DNA from: Thermodesulfobacteriota bacterium
GTDB lineage: Bacteria; Desulfobacterota_D; UBA1144; Nemesobacterales; CSP1-2
DNA length: 34,090 nt
Direction: 5' to 3'
Assembly: GCA_036397855.1 (NCBI GenBank)
Contig: DASWID010000091.1
Coordinates: forward strand, 1 to 34,090
Positions 26,527 to 31,662 of this stretch are shown in pieces. The notes below the pieces were generated by a model. The model saw nothing but the letters and a program-made list of their open reading frames with translations. It was not told the DNA's origin and made no database searches. The position numbers and the translations under genes are program-made. Each line of letters begins with the position of its first letter. Position 1 is the first letter of the stretch.

Positions 26527-26603
26527 TTATAGAAAAATTTGTTATATTCCAGTATGATGGAAATGCGGTTTTACGCCAAAAATTAATCATGAGGGAAGAT
26601 AAC

Positions 26604-27470
26604 ATGAATAATTTTGTTAAGTCTCACGGGCTTGGTAATGACTACGTTGTATTGGATCAGGCCAAAATATCCTTCCAACTCAATCCCGAAACAATAAGGC
26701 TCATCTGCCACAGAAATTATGGAATAGGATCCGATGGAATCCTCCTCGTCGTTAAATCTACCAATGCAGACTTTGGACTAAGAATTTTTAACCCGGATGG
26801 TACACCCGCAGAAAAGAGCGGTAATGGTCTCAGAATCTTCGCGAAATTCCTTTATGAACATGGCTACACTGACAAACACAACTTAAGTATTGATACTCCA
26901 GGAGGTATTGCAGCCGCAGAATTGGGGATAAATAATGAAAATATCGAATCTGTAACGGTGGAGATGGGTAAAGCAACATTCCAAAGTAAACTAGTACCAG
27001 TCGACGGTGAAGATAGAGAAGTAGTTGATGAAGTGATGAGAATTAATGGTGAGATACTGAAGATTACTGCAGTCTCAGTCGGGAATCCCCATTGTGTTGT
27101 TTTTATGGATGAGCTCGATGAAGGTTATGTGAGGAAACTCGGTCCTGTCATTGAAAATCACCAAATGTTTCCGAACCGAACTAATGTTCAGTTTGCACGG
27201 GTGATATCTAGACACAAAGTAGAAATACTCATCTGGGAGCGCGGTGCAGGTTATACACTGGCATCGGGAAGCAGCTCTTGTGCGGTAGCTGCAGCCTCAT
27301 TTAAAAACGGTTTCACAGACAGATCGGTGACTGTTTTAATGCCTGGTGGAGAACTCCAGATCGAAGTGAGAGAAGATTGGTCAATCAGGATGAGGGGTCC
27401 GGTTGAAGAGATTTGCAGCGGAACAATCAGTGAGGATCTAATCCTAAAAATATCCAAATTCCCTAAATAG
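26604..27470 (+). CDS. dapF: Diaminopimelate epimerase family protein lacking both catalytic cysteines
   Basis: The family interconverts LL- and meso-diaminopimelate for lysine and peptidoglycan. The fold signatures are clear: S-H-G-L-G-N-D-Y at the start, G-I-G-S-D-G, N-P-D-G-T-x3-K-S-G-N-G-L-R, V-G-N-P-H-C-V and E-R-G-A-G-Y-T-L-A-S-G. The two catalytic cysteines (C73 and C217 in the E. coli/Haemophilus enzymes) are both replaced by serine: S72 (AGC) and S221 (TCG), counted from the ATG at 26604. A cysteine four residues after S221... (C226) does not align with the active site. ATG 26604 is chosen because GAGGGA lies seven bases before it; an ATG at 26589 precedes that site. It may be a divergent active subfamily or a paralogue with another substrate. 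An amidohydrolase follows after 26 bp. Confidence 0.85.
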   Translation: MNNFVKSHGLGNDYVVLDQAKISFQLNPETIRLICHRNYGIGSDGILLVVKSTNADFGLRIFNPDGTPAEKSGNGLRIFAKFLYEHGYTDKHNLSIDTPGGIAAAELGINNENIESVTVEMGKATFQSKLVPVDGEDREVVDEVMRINGEILKITAVSVGNPHCVVFMDELDEGYVRKLGPVIENHQMFPNRTNVQFARVISRHKVEILIWERGAGYTLASGSSSCAVAAASFKNGFTDRSVTVLMPGGELQIEVREDWSIRMRGPVEEICSGTISEDLILKISKFPK

Positions 27471-27496: not shown

Positions 27497-28747
27497 ATGT
27501 CAAAGATCCTTCTAGCAGCAAAGATGATATTACCAATTTCATCCCCTCCGATGAAAGAAGGCGCATTATTAATAGCAGAGGGAAAGATTAAAGAAATTGG
27601 AGAAGGGAAAAAGCTAAGAAAAAGATACTCTCGAATAAATAATATAGAACTCGGGAACGGAATTTTACTCCCCGGATTCGTAAATGCACACACCCATCTT
27701 GAACTTGGATGGATAAAGAGAAAGATAGGAAATTTCAATGGATTTATTGAATGGCTTGAGCAAATAATAAAGGCAAAACAGATAGATACAAAAAGAGAAG
27801 AGATTGAAAAATCGATTAGAAAGGGCATCAAATCACTAATAGTAAATGGTGTAACTACGGTAGGCGAAGTTTCTTCTTATGGAGGCATTGACAAACCCCT
27901 ACTCAAAAAATCCGGACTCAGAACAGTCTTATTCATAGAGCTATTTGACAGACACGCAGACTTTTGGAAAAACCTGACATTTGAGAAAGAAGAGCTTTTT
28001 GAAGAAAGACCCTTTCCACACGCTCCTTACTCTTGCTCAGCGGATTTTCTTAAGAAGCTCGTAAGATTTCAAAGAAAGACGCGAATACCTTCGGGTATCC
28101 ACCTTGCCGAAAGTCCAGATGAGGTAAAATTTTTAAGAGGCTATAAGAACGGTTTCGAAAAGAGGATATTTCCATTAATAGAAAAAGAAAACTTTCACAG
28201 GATTAAAGCGGATTCGCCTTTTAAGTATCTAAAGAAATTAAAATTTTTTTATAAAAGCAAAGTTACTGCAGTGCACATGGTGCAGGTTCATCCTGCGGAA
28301 ATTGAAGAAATAAAAAAAGACGATATTGGTGTGGTGTTATGTCCAAGAAGCAATTACTTTCTTAAAGTTGGTGCTCCACCTTTCAAGCATTATTCTGGCC
28401 TCGATAGGATAGGGATTGGGACAGACGGCCTTTCGAGTAACTTCAACTTTGAATTCTTTGAAGAACTTAGATTTTTTTACCTTACTTCGAATAAGATATT
28501 AGGAATGGATGCCTCCTTCTTTACAGTCTATGCTGCCACACTCGGTGGAGCAAAATCGATTTTTCTCGAAGATAAGATTGGAAGTATTGAAAAGGGGAAA
28601 GATGCCGATTTAATATTCCTCGGTCCAGCGAACGCCTATACCGACCCCTATCTCTCAGTAATATCTTCCACAAACAAAGACTTACAGCTTTCGATGGTAA
28701 GAGGTAAAGTTATTTACTCAAAGAAAAAAGCCTGGAAAAACATTTGA
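27497..28747 (+). CDS. mqnX: Amidohydrolase, probable aminodeoxyfutalosine deaminase
   Basis: This 416-residue metal-dependent hydrolase is of the TRZ/ATZ/SsnA-like amidohydrolase group. The N-terminal beta segment and G-x-L-L-P-G-F-V-N-A-H-T-H-L-E place the metal ligands H65 and H67. Further ligands are H202 (G-I-H-L-A-E-S), probably H260 or H265 (V-H-M-V-Q-V-H), and D310 (G-I-G-T-D-G-L-S-S-N). The C-terminal G-S-I-E-K-G-K-D-A-D-L is typical. Deamination of 6-amino-6-deoxyfutalosine by this superfamily is known for the futalosine menaquinone route. mqnD and mqnA lie 1-4 kb away on the other strand, which is the reason for the proposed role; a different deaminase is possible. It lies 26 bp after dapF, and its TGA overlaps the TTG of the next gene. 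Confidence 0.68.
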   Translation: MSKILLAAKMILPISSPPMKEGALLIAEGKIKEIGEGKKLRKRYSRINNIELGNGILLPGFVNAHTHLELGWIKRKIGNFNGFIEWLEQIIKAKQIDTKREEIEKSIRKGIKSLIVNGVTTVGEVSSYGGIDKPLLKKSGLRTVLFIELFDRHADFWKNLTFEKEELFEERPFPHAPYSCSADFLKKLVRFQRKTRIPSGIHLAESPDEVKFLRGYKNGFEKRIFPLIEKENFHRIKADSPFKYLKKLKFFYKSKVTAVHMVQVHPAEIEEIKKDDIGVVLCPRSNYFLKVGAPPFKHYSGLDRIGIGTDGLSSNFNFEFFEELRFFYLTSNKILGMDASFFTVYAATLGGAKSIFLEDKIGSIEKGKDADLIFLGPANAYTDPYLSVISSTNKDLQLSMVRGKVIYSKKKAWKNI

Positions 28748-29805
28748 GCAATGAAATAAAAAAGCTTTTTGTATATGGAACACTCCTACAGGGCGAGCCA
28801 AGAAACGAGTTTTTATACGACAGCGATTTGCTTGGATCCCTGGAGATACCGGGAGAGCTTTATATCACCGATATGGGATACCCGACAGCTTTTTTTACAC
28901 AGAATGTAAATCACCATGTAAGTGGAGAGCTTTACGAACTATCCGGAGATAATATCACTGATAAGATCATGACCTTGGATGAGATAGAAGGAATTGACGA
29001 TGGTTTATTTAAAAGGAAGGTTCTGAGAATGAATGGCCACAACTTTTTTACTTACGAAGCTGGAGAGGCATTAGGCAATTTCCTAAACAGCAGATTCAAA
29101 ATCAAATCGGGAAACTGGAGATTACACGGATCTATAGCTAAGAGGGACCCAATCAAATTTGCCCTTGCCTTTGAAAAATACTCTGCAAAAGGCTACAGAG
29201 AGTTTCCTATAAAAGACTCATCAGAATCGATCCATGTACGAGGAGTAGCTCCCATTCTTTTAACCGCACCACACGCATGTGCTCATATTCGAATGAATAA
29301 GTTAAAAAGTCCAGAGACATTCACAGGGTCACTCGCGGTTATACTTCACTCGATTACGGGATCCCATGCCCTTTACACCCACAGGGCTTCTGAAATTGAC
29401 CCGAATTTTTATGATGAGTCTCCATTTAAAGAAAAGATTGCCACAATCGTGAAAAGATTTGGGATCAGGTTTGTGCTCGACATTCACGGTACCTCTACAA
29501 CAAAGTTAGGGGATGTATTTCCAGGAGTTGGTTCCGACCATGAATTTCTCCTTGGCAATGAATCCTTCATAGACAAACTATTCGAATGCTCAGCGAGATT
29601 CGGAATCAGACTTGGAAGTCCGAGAATTTTTCCAGCATCGCGCCAGATGACCGTAACCAGATTCGTTGCTAGAAAGCTCGGAATAACATCTATGCAAATT
29701 GAGATTAATGAAAGGCTTAGAACCCCTGACAAATTACCTCAGAGCTTTGACAAATTAGTAAGATTTCTTGTCGACTTTTTAGGTACTGCAAAAAACCCTT
29801 GTTAA
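28744..29805 (+). CDS. Fusion: gamma-glutamylcyclotransferase-like plus formylglutamate-amidohydrolase-like domains
   Basis: This is a 353-residue two-domain protein starting at TTG inside the preceding stop (TTGA). Residues 6-125 match the gamma-glutamylcyclotransferase/AIG2 fold: F-V-Y-G-T-L-L-Q-G near 9-17 and the likely catalytic acid E82 in L-D-E-I-E-G. Residues 165-350 resemble the N-formylglutamate amidohydrolase superfamily: T-A-P-H-A-C-A-H (H177, H181) and F-V-L-D-I-H-G (D246, H248) as probable zinc ligands or catalytic residues. Both domains act on gamma-linked or N-acylated glutamate in known relatives, so a combined role on a glutamyl compound is plausible but unproven. The C-terminal match is by motif only. 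Its TAA shares the palindrome TTAA with the stop of convergent mqnD. Confidence 0.72.
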   Translation: MSNEIKKLFVYGTLLQGEPRNEFLYDSDLLGSLEIPGELYITDMGYPTAFFTQNVNHHVSGELYELSGDNITDKIMTLDEIEGIDDGLFKRKVLRMNGHNFFTYEAGEALGNFLNSRFKIKSGNWRLHGSIAKRDPIKFALAFEKYSAKGYREFPIKDSSESIHVRGVAPILLTAPHACAHIRMNKLKSPETFTGSLAVILHSITGSHALYTHRASEIDPNFYDESPFKEKIATIVKRFGIRFVLDIHGTSTTKLGDVFPGVGSDHEFLLGNESFIDKLFECSARFGIRLGSPRIFPASRQMTVTRFVARKLGITSMQIEINERLRTPDKLPQSFDKLVRFLVDFLGTAKNPC

Positions 29806-30635
29806 TTGCCCAAAATATCCAGTCTTGCACTTTCACTAATAAGTCCCTTTTCATGAGCCTTTGTAAAAAGACACTCTAAAGCTTTTTTTCCCCGCTTCCC
29901 CATTTTTTTCGTAAATTCATTTACATACATGAGCACAAACTTTTCTCCCAAGTCCTTATTCATCCCTCTCCCAAACTTAAGTGCATACTCCAAGGCTTCA
30001 TCTATATGGGCGAGGCCATATTCTATGCTTTCCTGATGAACTCTTAATACCTCATCCTCAATGCTCCCATCAAATCCCCTTTTTATGACATTTAACCCCA
30101 AGGGCAGAGGAAGATCGGTTTCTTCAGACCACGATTTACCAAGATCGAAAATTGACTCTAGACCATAGTCTTTATATGTAAGCTGTCCCTCATGTATTAT
30201 AAGACCAGCATCAACATGCCCATCCCTGACAGCATTAAAGATTTTATCAAAGGGAAATTCAACTGGTATAAATCCATCACAGTAAATACGGAGGAGTAGA
30301 TATGCCGTCGTTAATTTGCCTGGAATGGCTATCCTTTTGCCCTCCAGTTCCTTTATCATTTCCCTTGCCACTACGATGGGGCCGTAGCCTGCCCCCATAC
30401 TAGCGCCACATGAAAGAATCCTATACTTATCCTGTACCATAAGATACGTGTGAGCCGAAACTGCGGTCACTTCCAGCTCCCCTTTTAATGCTCTTTCGTT
30501 AAGGGACTGAATTTCTTGAATAACATGTACAAAATCGATCTTGTCTGATGAAACCTTGCCACTGGCGAGTCCATAAAACATGAAGGCATCATCGGGGTCA
30601 GGGCTGTGCCCGAGTCTCATTGTGATTTTACTCAA
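29802..30635 (-). CDS. mqnD: MqnD, 1,4-dihydroxy-6-naphthoate synthase
   Basis: This 277-residue enzyme converts cyclic dehypoxanthine futalosine to 1,4-dihydroxy-6-naphthoate in the futalosine menaquinone route. The family start G-H-S-P-D-P-D-D-A-F-M-F-Y-G-L is at residues 9-23. V-S-A-H-T-Y follows near 59, G-A-G-Y-G-P-I-V-V near 82, I-A-I-P-G-K-L-T-T-A near 101, I-I-H-E-G-Q-L near 145 and L-P-L-P-L-G near 174. It starts at TTG with AAGGAG nine bases upstream; the in-frame ATG at 30620 is too far from that site. It lies 229 bp after mqnA in the same direction, so it may have its own promoter. Bacterial solute-binding proteins share the fold, but the N-terminal motif is specific. Confidence 0.93.
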   Translation of the reverse strand: MSKITMRLGHSPDPDDAFMFYGLASGKVSSDKIDFVHVIQEIQSLNERALKGELEVTAVSAHTYLMVQDKYRILSCGASMGAGYGPIVVAREMIKELEGKRIAIPGKLTTAYLLLRIYCDGFIPVEFPFDKIFNAVRDGHVDAGLIIHEGQLTYKDYGLESIFDLGKSWSEETDLPLPLGLNVIKRGFDGSIEDEVLRVHQESIEYGLAHIDEALEYALKFGRGMNKDLGEKFVLMYVNEFTKKMGKRGKKALECLFTKAHEKGLISESARLDILGN

Positions 30636-30864
30636 GATTTGTGTCTCCTTTTTTCAATAAATCTTCTCACAGGATGGTATCAGCTCGCCCTGAATGGTAG
30701 AAGATCTCAGTCAAAACCGCATCATCCCTATACCTTATGATATCTCAACAATCAAAATAGACCTCAGGAGTTGATTTCAAAATCTGAACTTTCAGATAAT
30801 GAAAAATCCAACTCATGTTAAGACATCGGAAACCTTCATGTTTCGAACCATTGACAGACCTTAT

Positions 30865-31662
30865 TTAGGCCTTATAAAACTTCAATCCTGAATTCTTGAT
30901 GTCGGCACCAATCTTTGACAATAAATATCTAAAAGCATTTATTCCTTCGATCTCTTTATCACCCAGATTATAGTGAATTCTTTCAGTCAGATATTCGTAA
31001 CAAATATTCTCACTCAAATTGATTTCATTGGCGTAAATTTTTGCGATTCTCTTTGTAAGCTTAAGTCCCATCACTTTAGCCATCTCTAGAGCCTCAAGAT
31101 TCTTCCCGAGATTTACCCCTTCTCCCACTGCATATACTGCATACACGAATGGGAGGCCCGTCTCCTTAGTCCATACCTCGCCAAGGTCTATCACTTTATA
31201 GCCGCCAGGGGGCGAATGCCTCATCCTGAGACCAGCATTTCCTATGTACATCCCAGCATCTACTCCATCCAAAAAGTTGTCATCAGGATTTCTTTCAACA
31301 TAACCGGGATTAATATTATTGAATCTCTCTAGAATAATTCTAAGAAGCGATGAAGAGCTCTGCGATCTCGAATCTACCGCTACGGTTTTTATCTCCCCAA
31401 CTGATTTCTTAGACAACAATACGACACTGGCTACCTCACCATTGGATGAAATTGATACATTCGGGACTATCCTATAAATATCTCTTTTAAGTAATTCAGC
31501 AACGGGAATTAGACCCAGGTCAACTTTCTTTTCGAATAGTAATCTGGATAATCTGGACGGATTTTCATACACAATCTCAAAGTCATTTTTTATTAAACCT
31601 TCCTCTAACGCGTACACAAGAGGTCTTACATTTAAAAATGGAACAGCTCCAAGCTTGATCAA
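30865..31662 (-). CDS. mqnA: MqnA, chorismate dehydratase
   Basis: MqnA dehydrates chorismate to 3-[(1-carboxyvinyl)oxy]benzoate, the first step of the futalosine route to menaquinone. The 265-residue protein opens with L-G-A-V-P-F-L-N-V-R-P-L, the characteristic start. It has D-L-G-L-I-P-V-A-E near residue 49, A-V-D-S-R-S-Q-S-S near 93, Y-I-G-N-A-G-L near 138 and D-L-G-E-V-W-T-K-E-T-G-L-P-F-V near 158, the last shared with MqnD. It starts at TTG with GGAG seven bases upstream; a nearby ATG is out of frame. It lies 72 bp after hisF. The other steps (mqnE, mqnC, mqnB) are not in the window. Confidence 0.93.
   Translation of the reverse strand: MIKLGAVPFLNVRPLVYALEEGLIKNDFEIVYENPSRLSRLLFEKKVDLGLIPVAELLKRDIYRIVPNVSISSNGEVASVVLLSKKSVGEIKTVAVDSRSQSSSSLLRIILERFNNINPGYVERNPDDNFLDGVDAGMYIGNAGLRMRHSPPGGYKVIDLGEVWTKETGLPFVYAVYAVGEGVNLGKNLEALEMAKVMGLKLTKRIAKIYANEINLSENICYEYLTERIHYNLGDKEIEGINAFRYLLSKIGADIKNSGLKFYKA

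Follow-up and report, generated by a model that had tools for sequence, protein, structure and literature searches.

DapF, the diaminopimelate (DAP) epimerase, is the classic example of an enzyme in which a weak thiolate base abstracts a very weakly acidic proton, and it is an antibacterial target that has been attacked with cysteine-reactive aziridines. The window analyzed here is a stretch of 34,090 nucleotides from a Thermodesulfobacteriota genome (contig C91 of a 3.1-Mb assembly that is 95.65% complete). It encodes a DapF-like protein that lacks the hallmark of the family, a thiol-thiolate pair of two catalytic cysteines, and has Ser72 and Ser221 instead. Does such a protein still epimerize DAP, and by what chemistry? 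An initial annotation, which had noticed both replacements, left the choice between a variant chemistry and a new substrate. Judging from the comparative sequence evidence, the protein is likely the genome's working DAP epimerase, converting LL-DAP to meso-DAP, and a member of a Ser/Ser subfamily that would employ a two-base mechanism with serines.

The open reading frame is full length by translation (288 amino acids) and contains the motifs AEK-S72-GNG and TLA-S221-GSSSCA; a GAGG box lies 5' of the start at 26604, and an alternative in-frame ATG is found at 26589. Translation and codon reading confirmed the serines reported at both catalytic positions (AGC for Ser72 and TCG for Ser221). The protein scores 259.8 bits with the DapF equivalog model TIGR00652 (cut-off, 114.65) and 196.5 with PF01678 (cut-off, 34.7), both of its halves being matched; PF01678 is the only family retrieved in a Pfam scan, and the proline racemase profile is not matched. 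The PROSITE DapF signature, which requires Cys (as quoted in PMC8225329), does not recognize the protein. Substrate-contact residues are those of the Cys types (N12, N63, N74, N161, H163, N194, E212, R213, G222, and S/T223), and the GNPH and WERG motifs of DapF are present. An AlphaFold model (mean pLDDT, 92.2; pTM, 0.86) gives a confident DapF fold, whose best Foldseek matches in the PDB are DapF crystal structures, far above proline racemases; in this predicted model, the catalytic positions lie at helix N termini.

Table 1. The Ser/Ser-type dapF gene of the window and codons of its active-site region
Feature	Position	Strand	Remarks
Ser/Ser-type diaminopimelate epimerase gene (dapF)	26604..27470	+	288 codons plus stop; sole PF01678 gene of genome
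Lys71 (AAG)	26814..26816	+	Residue preceding first catalytic position
Ser72 (AGC)	26817..26819	+	Replaces first catalytic Cys (Hi-DapF Cys73); directly before helix 73-85
Ile78	26835..26837	+	Cys-type enzymes nearly always Cys here (RC motif)
Ser221 (TCG)	27264..27266	+	Replaces second catalytic Cys (Hi-DapF Cys217); directly before helix 222-234
Ser224 (AGC)	27273..27275	+	Three residues after Ser221; Cys types have Gly

The Ser/Ser type is widespread. Among the 61 relatives searched, 55 genomes of the same class (including that of the window) have one homologue each, with 48 to 77% identity to the query; the relatives that bear a name, at 75% identity or less, belong to “Candidatus Dadabacteria,” and the window genome is likewise taken as one of these. 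Every Dadabacteria homologue that could be read has kept Ser/Ser, and the motifs around the two serines, AEKSGNGLRI and WERGAGYTLASGSSSC, are near-invariant. Thus, conservation across the whole class, together with a total of 131 distinct Ser/Ser sequences, rules out a sequencing error at both codons, which the initial annotation had considered, as well as a frameshift. In 175 readings across loci, Ser72 is encoded by AGC, AGT, TCG, or TCC and Ser221 by TCN.

A scan of named genomes returned at least 591 pattern matches, and 555 of the matches listed were relatives. All but one of the best 80 of the matches listed are Ser/Ser; one scan pattern included Ser72, so that this residue, and not Ser221, was selected for. 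The Ser/Ser sequences among them come from Dadabacteria, Rokubacteria/Methylomirabilota, Armatimonadota, Prolixibacteraceae and other Bacteroidota, Aquificota, FCPU426, Chloroflexota, Clostridium, and Neobacillus. All searches together yielded about 226 different DapF sequences, comprising 131 with Ser/Ser, 92 with Cys/Cys, and 4 with Cys72/Ser221; the combination Ser72/Cys221 does not occur among them. Two Chloroflexota Ser/Ser DapFs (L284 and L285) have GSG in place of the otherwise invariant GNG (Asn74 to Ser). The IMG/VR viral collection yielded a single relative, a Ser/Ser dapF of 44% identity with Gln71 and Gly224 (L133:2944-3753), which may represent host DNA or a phage-borne copy.

A tree of Ser/Ser homologues, as proposed in the initial annotation, was built without the catalytic and coupled columns and without two long rows. 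It contains a well-supported Ser clade (bootstrap, 100, not fully settled; SH-aLRT, 95) with 25 Ser/Ser and 3 Cys/Ser representatives. The clade spans Dadabacteria, Methylomirabilota/Rokubacteria, Armatimonadota, part of Aquificota and Chloroflexota, and Prolixibacteraceae, with scattered members in Clostridium, Neobacillus, Flavobacterium, and Paraflavitalea. Because three Cys72/Ser221 hybrids of Bacteroidales (L131, L216, and L219) nest inside it, Ser72 has probably reverted to Cys in these proteins. A Ser/Ser protein (L279) and a Cys72/Ser221 protein (L280), both of Chloroflexota, are placed among the Cys types and represent separate events. The Ser/Ser pair marks an old and widespread branch of DapF that is apparently doing the normal job.

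Two neighbors of the catalytic residues change together with them. In a set of 119 representatives of less than 70% identity, 50 of the 52 sequences with Ser221 have Ser at position 224, compared with none of the 67 with Cys221 (66 of which have Gly). Lys occupies position 71 in 45 of the 48 sequences with Ser72 and in none of the 71 with Cys72. Fisher P values are near 1e-29 (S221-S224) and 1e-31 (S72-K71), in tests that ignore kinship; independent events number only a few. Independent hybrid cases are more telling than such kinship-blind counts: the three Bacteroidales hybrids have Asn71 for Lys71 but have retained Ser224, and in L280, a hybrid of separate origin, the residues are Met71 and Ser224. 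Both kinds of hybrid fit a coupling of each neighbor to its own catalytic position. Two Ser/Ser proteins, L133 and L279, have neither Lys71 nor Ser224; therefore, either these residues are not strictly required or the two proteins are inactive.

How could hydroxyl groups take over? In Anabaena DapF, backbone amides are close enough to hydrogen bond with the catalytic sulfurs, that of Gly227 (+3 from Cys224) being one of them, and no basic residue lies within 4 Å of the sulfurs (PMC12039745). Where enzymes of the proline racemase superfamily use a catalytic Ser, this residue is positioned by an Asn at +3, and Ser/Cys enzymes epimerize hydroxyproline (PMC4113996). On the basis of these precedents, the +3 Ser, and Lys71, we propose that Ser72 and Ser221 would form a two-base pair, one acting as an alkoxide-like base and the other as a hydroxyl acid, with both residues capping the N terminus of a helix and lying on opposite faces of the substrate. 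Ser224 would hydrogen bond to Ser221 and orient it, in the way that Asn at +3 acts on the catalytic Ser in the superfamily enzymes, and Lys71 may aid deprotonation of Ser72 or stabilize its alkoxide; the rest would be supplied by the closed, water-free cleft and the helix dipoles, as in Cys-type DapF. The observation that residues of the position-71 loop make no substrate contact in the Cys enzymes (PMC12039745) counts against the role of Lys71. The weak point of the proposed chemistry is that single Cys-to-Ser mutants are nearly dead: those of PddB have under 0.1% activity, with the same reported there for Mycobacterium tuberculosis DapF (PMC8225329), and those of HisR have greatly reduced activity (PMC11602996). 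The fuller picture is, in our judgment, evenly poised between right and wrong: a natural cofactor-independent epimerase in which a serine pair takes the alpha-proton, one face being served by a Ser-Lys unit (K71-S72) and the opposite one by a Ser-Ser helix cap (S221-S224). Such an enzyme could be exchanged in vivo for the Cys/Cys type and would have no catalytic thiol to be oxidized or trapped by thiol-directed DapF inhibitors.

Another residue might transfer the proton (Cys164 beside the active-site His163, Cys226, Cys35, or Lys71), the serines being merely structural. Conservation provides candidates, since Cys164 is found in 129 and Lys71 in 128 of the 131 Ser/Ser sequences and Cys35 is invariant in a ten-sequence alignment (A2), but Cys226 is replaced by Ser in 13 of the 131. 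Moreover, Ser72 and Ser221 never vary within the Ser/Ser set and stand where the catalytic cysteines do, at the starts of helices, and with purely structural serines the coupled changes at positions 71 and 224 would need another reason. We consider this explanation unlikely.

The pathway context bears on the substrate. DapL produces LL-DAP, while LysA and MurE of the DNPR type, a motif that marks the meso-DAP-adding enzyme, are users of meso-DAP. The genome encodes DapL (TIGR03540, 632.7 bits; cut-off, 593.25), LysA (527.3 bits; cut-off, 297.9), and MurE with the DNPR motif (544.4 bits; cut-off, 257.3). DapL is below the cut-off of TIGR03542, which is not the right model for it. No DAP dehydrogenase was found in this genome or in six other Dadabacteria, which speaks against a bypass through this enzyme for the window genome; among 43 genomes, one has a DAP dehydrogenase above the cut-off. 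Nor does the genome, at 95.65% completeness, contain a second PF01678/DapF gene, so that the additional Cys/Cys DapF that the initial annotation had proposed to look for is not there. Since LL-DAP is made, meso-DAP is used, and DAP dehydrogenase is lacking, the Ser/Ser DapF is the sole candidate for the intervening step, and the meso-DAP that it would provide most likely feeds both lysine and peptidoglycan. A single TIGR00652 match is likewise the rule in the Ser clade (32 of 36 genomes); the other four (Clostridium intestinale, Clostridium sp. LS, Paraflavitalea, and Neobacillus cucumis) have a second copy, which is Cys/Cys.

Gene neighborhoods and the distribution of the two types among close relatives provide further evidence. 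In Bacteroidota, a dapL homologue is located within 1.6 kb of the Ser-type dapF on the opposite strand in 14 loci, and a lysA homologue adjoins it on the same strand, mostly at a distance of 41 to 112 bp, in 11 loci. In Flavobacterium, 2 of 60 genomes (Flavobacterium panacis and one relative) have the Ser type only, and 28 others that were read have Cys/Cys only; in Aquificota, the Ser type is present in 19 of 61 genomes, the remainder having a distant DapF, which is Cys/Cys in the four read. From these distributions we read that, in both groups, one type has naturally taken the place of the other; a single copy of either the Ser or the Cys type per genome is what is expected if the two are interchangeable.

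The Dadabacteria dapF context offers no functional lead. Beside dapF, positions 27497-31662 of the window encode an aminofutalosine-deaminase-like amidohydrolase, which scores below its curated threshold, then a protein with a GGACT domain and two proteins of the VitK2_biosynth family (MqnD/MqnA-like). The same arrangement is repeated at Dadabacteria loci such as L052, L061, and L064, which suggests a conserved futalosine menaquinone neighborhood. In the 353-amino-acid GGACT protein (28744-29805), the domain is limited to residues 8 to 126, and the remaining residues (approximately 225) match no Pfam family at 1e-5.

These data also bear on the possibility that the Ser/Ser protein acts on another substrate, racemizing an amino acid or catalyzing a dehydration or elimination, with meso-DAP coming from elsewhere. 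DapF homologues have reached other substrates, as in HisR (PMC11602996), the diaminobutyrate racemase PddB (PMC8225329), and O-ureidoserine racemase; a catalytic Ser occurs in both dehydratases and epimerases of the proline racemase superfamily (PMC4113996); and four carrier genomes do have a Cys/Cys DapF in addition. Against this, the window genome and most carriers contain no other DapF or DAP dehydrogenase, the window genome has the enzymes on both sides of the step, dapL and lysA are the neighbors in Bacteroidota, the substrate-contact residues are unchanged, and the two types swap one for one in Flavobacterium and Aquificota. We therefore regard a different substrate as improbable. Of the two readings offered initially, variant chemistry is thus the one retained, being favored by an ancient clade, a usually sole DapF, and covarying active-site neighbors, and the new substrate is not. 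A catalytically dead, vestigial protein, with meso-DAP and lysine imported or LL-DAP used directly, would agree with the near inactivity of single Cys-to-Ser mutants of Cys-type enzymes but is hardly credible given motif positions frozen across proteins 48 to 77% identical to the query, the presence of just one copy in most carrier genomes, LysA being encoded there as well, and a Flavobacterium Ser type that stands in for the usual Cys type.

Returning to the Ser/Ser DapF as a DAP epimerase, this essential step of wall building probably does not depend strictly on a pair of cysteines, because Ser/Ser defines an old branch that apparently does the normal job. If active, so large a natural clade without either Cys would mean that the DapF fold manages proton abstraction with hydroxyls, and the coupled residues point to compensations worth testing in ordinary DapF mutants. 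Annotation rules that require Cys would miss the sole DAP epimerase of whole lineages or wrongly call it inactive. We found no description of a Ser/Ser DapF subfamily in the open literature searched, although one may still exist, and no documented Ser/Ser dyad in the same literature.

In comparison with known systems, the window protein resembles DapF (TIGR00652 and PF01678; Escherichia coli, Haemophilus influenzae, and Anabaena) in full-length homology, fold, contact residues, and pathway position. It differs from the Cys types in its Ser/Ser pair and in having Lys just before the first catalytic position (mostly Met in the Cys types), Ser three residues after the second (Gly in the Cys types), and Ile at position 78 (Cys in the Cys types). 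Because it is homologous and takes the place of DapF but is devoid of the defining cysteine pair, we file it, on sequence grounds, as a Ser/Ser variant subfamily of DapF and not as an ordinary member. With the histidine racemases HisR/CntK, PddB, and O-ureidoserine racemase it shares the DapF-like fold and, as proposed here, a two-base mechanism, whereas HisR and PddB have been shown to be Cys/Cys enzymes with other substrates, and their Cys-to-Ser mutants are little active. The likeness to the proline racemase family noted initially is borne out, as dyads of Ser/Cys (B9JQV3, a 4-hydroxyproline epimerase) and Ser/Thr (B9K4G4, a trans-3-hydroxyproline dehydratase) are documented there; these enzymes likewise have a catalytic Ser, the same overall fold, and a +3 residue that holds the Ser (PMC4113996). 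However, they belong to another family and substrate class and pair one Ser with a Cys or Thr partner, and their +3 residue is an Asn in the N-terminal half, whereas that of the window protein is a Ser in the C-terminal half.
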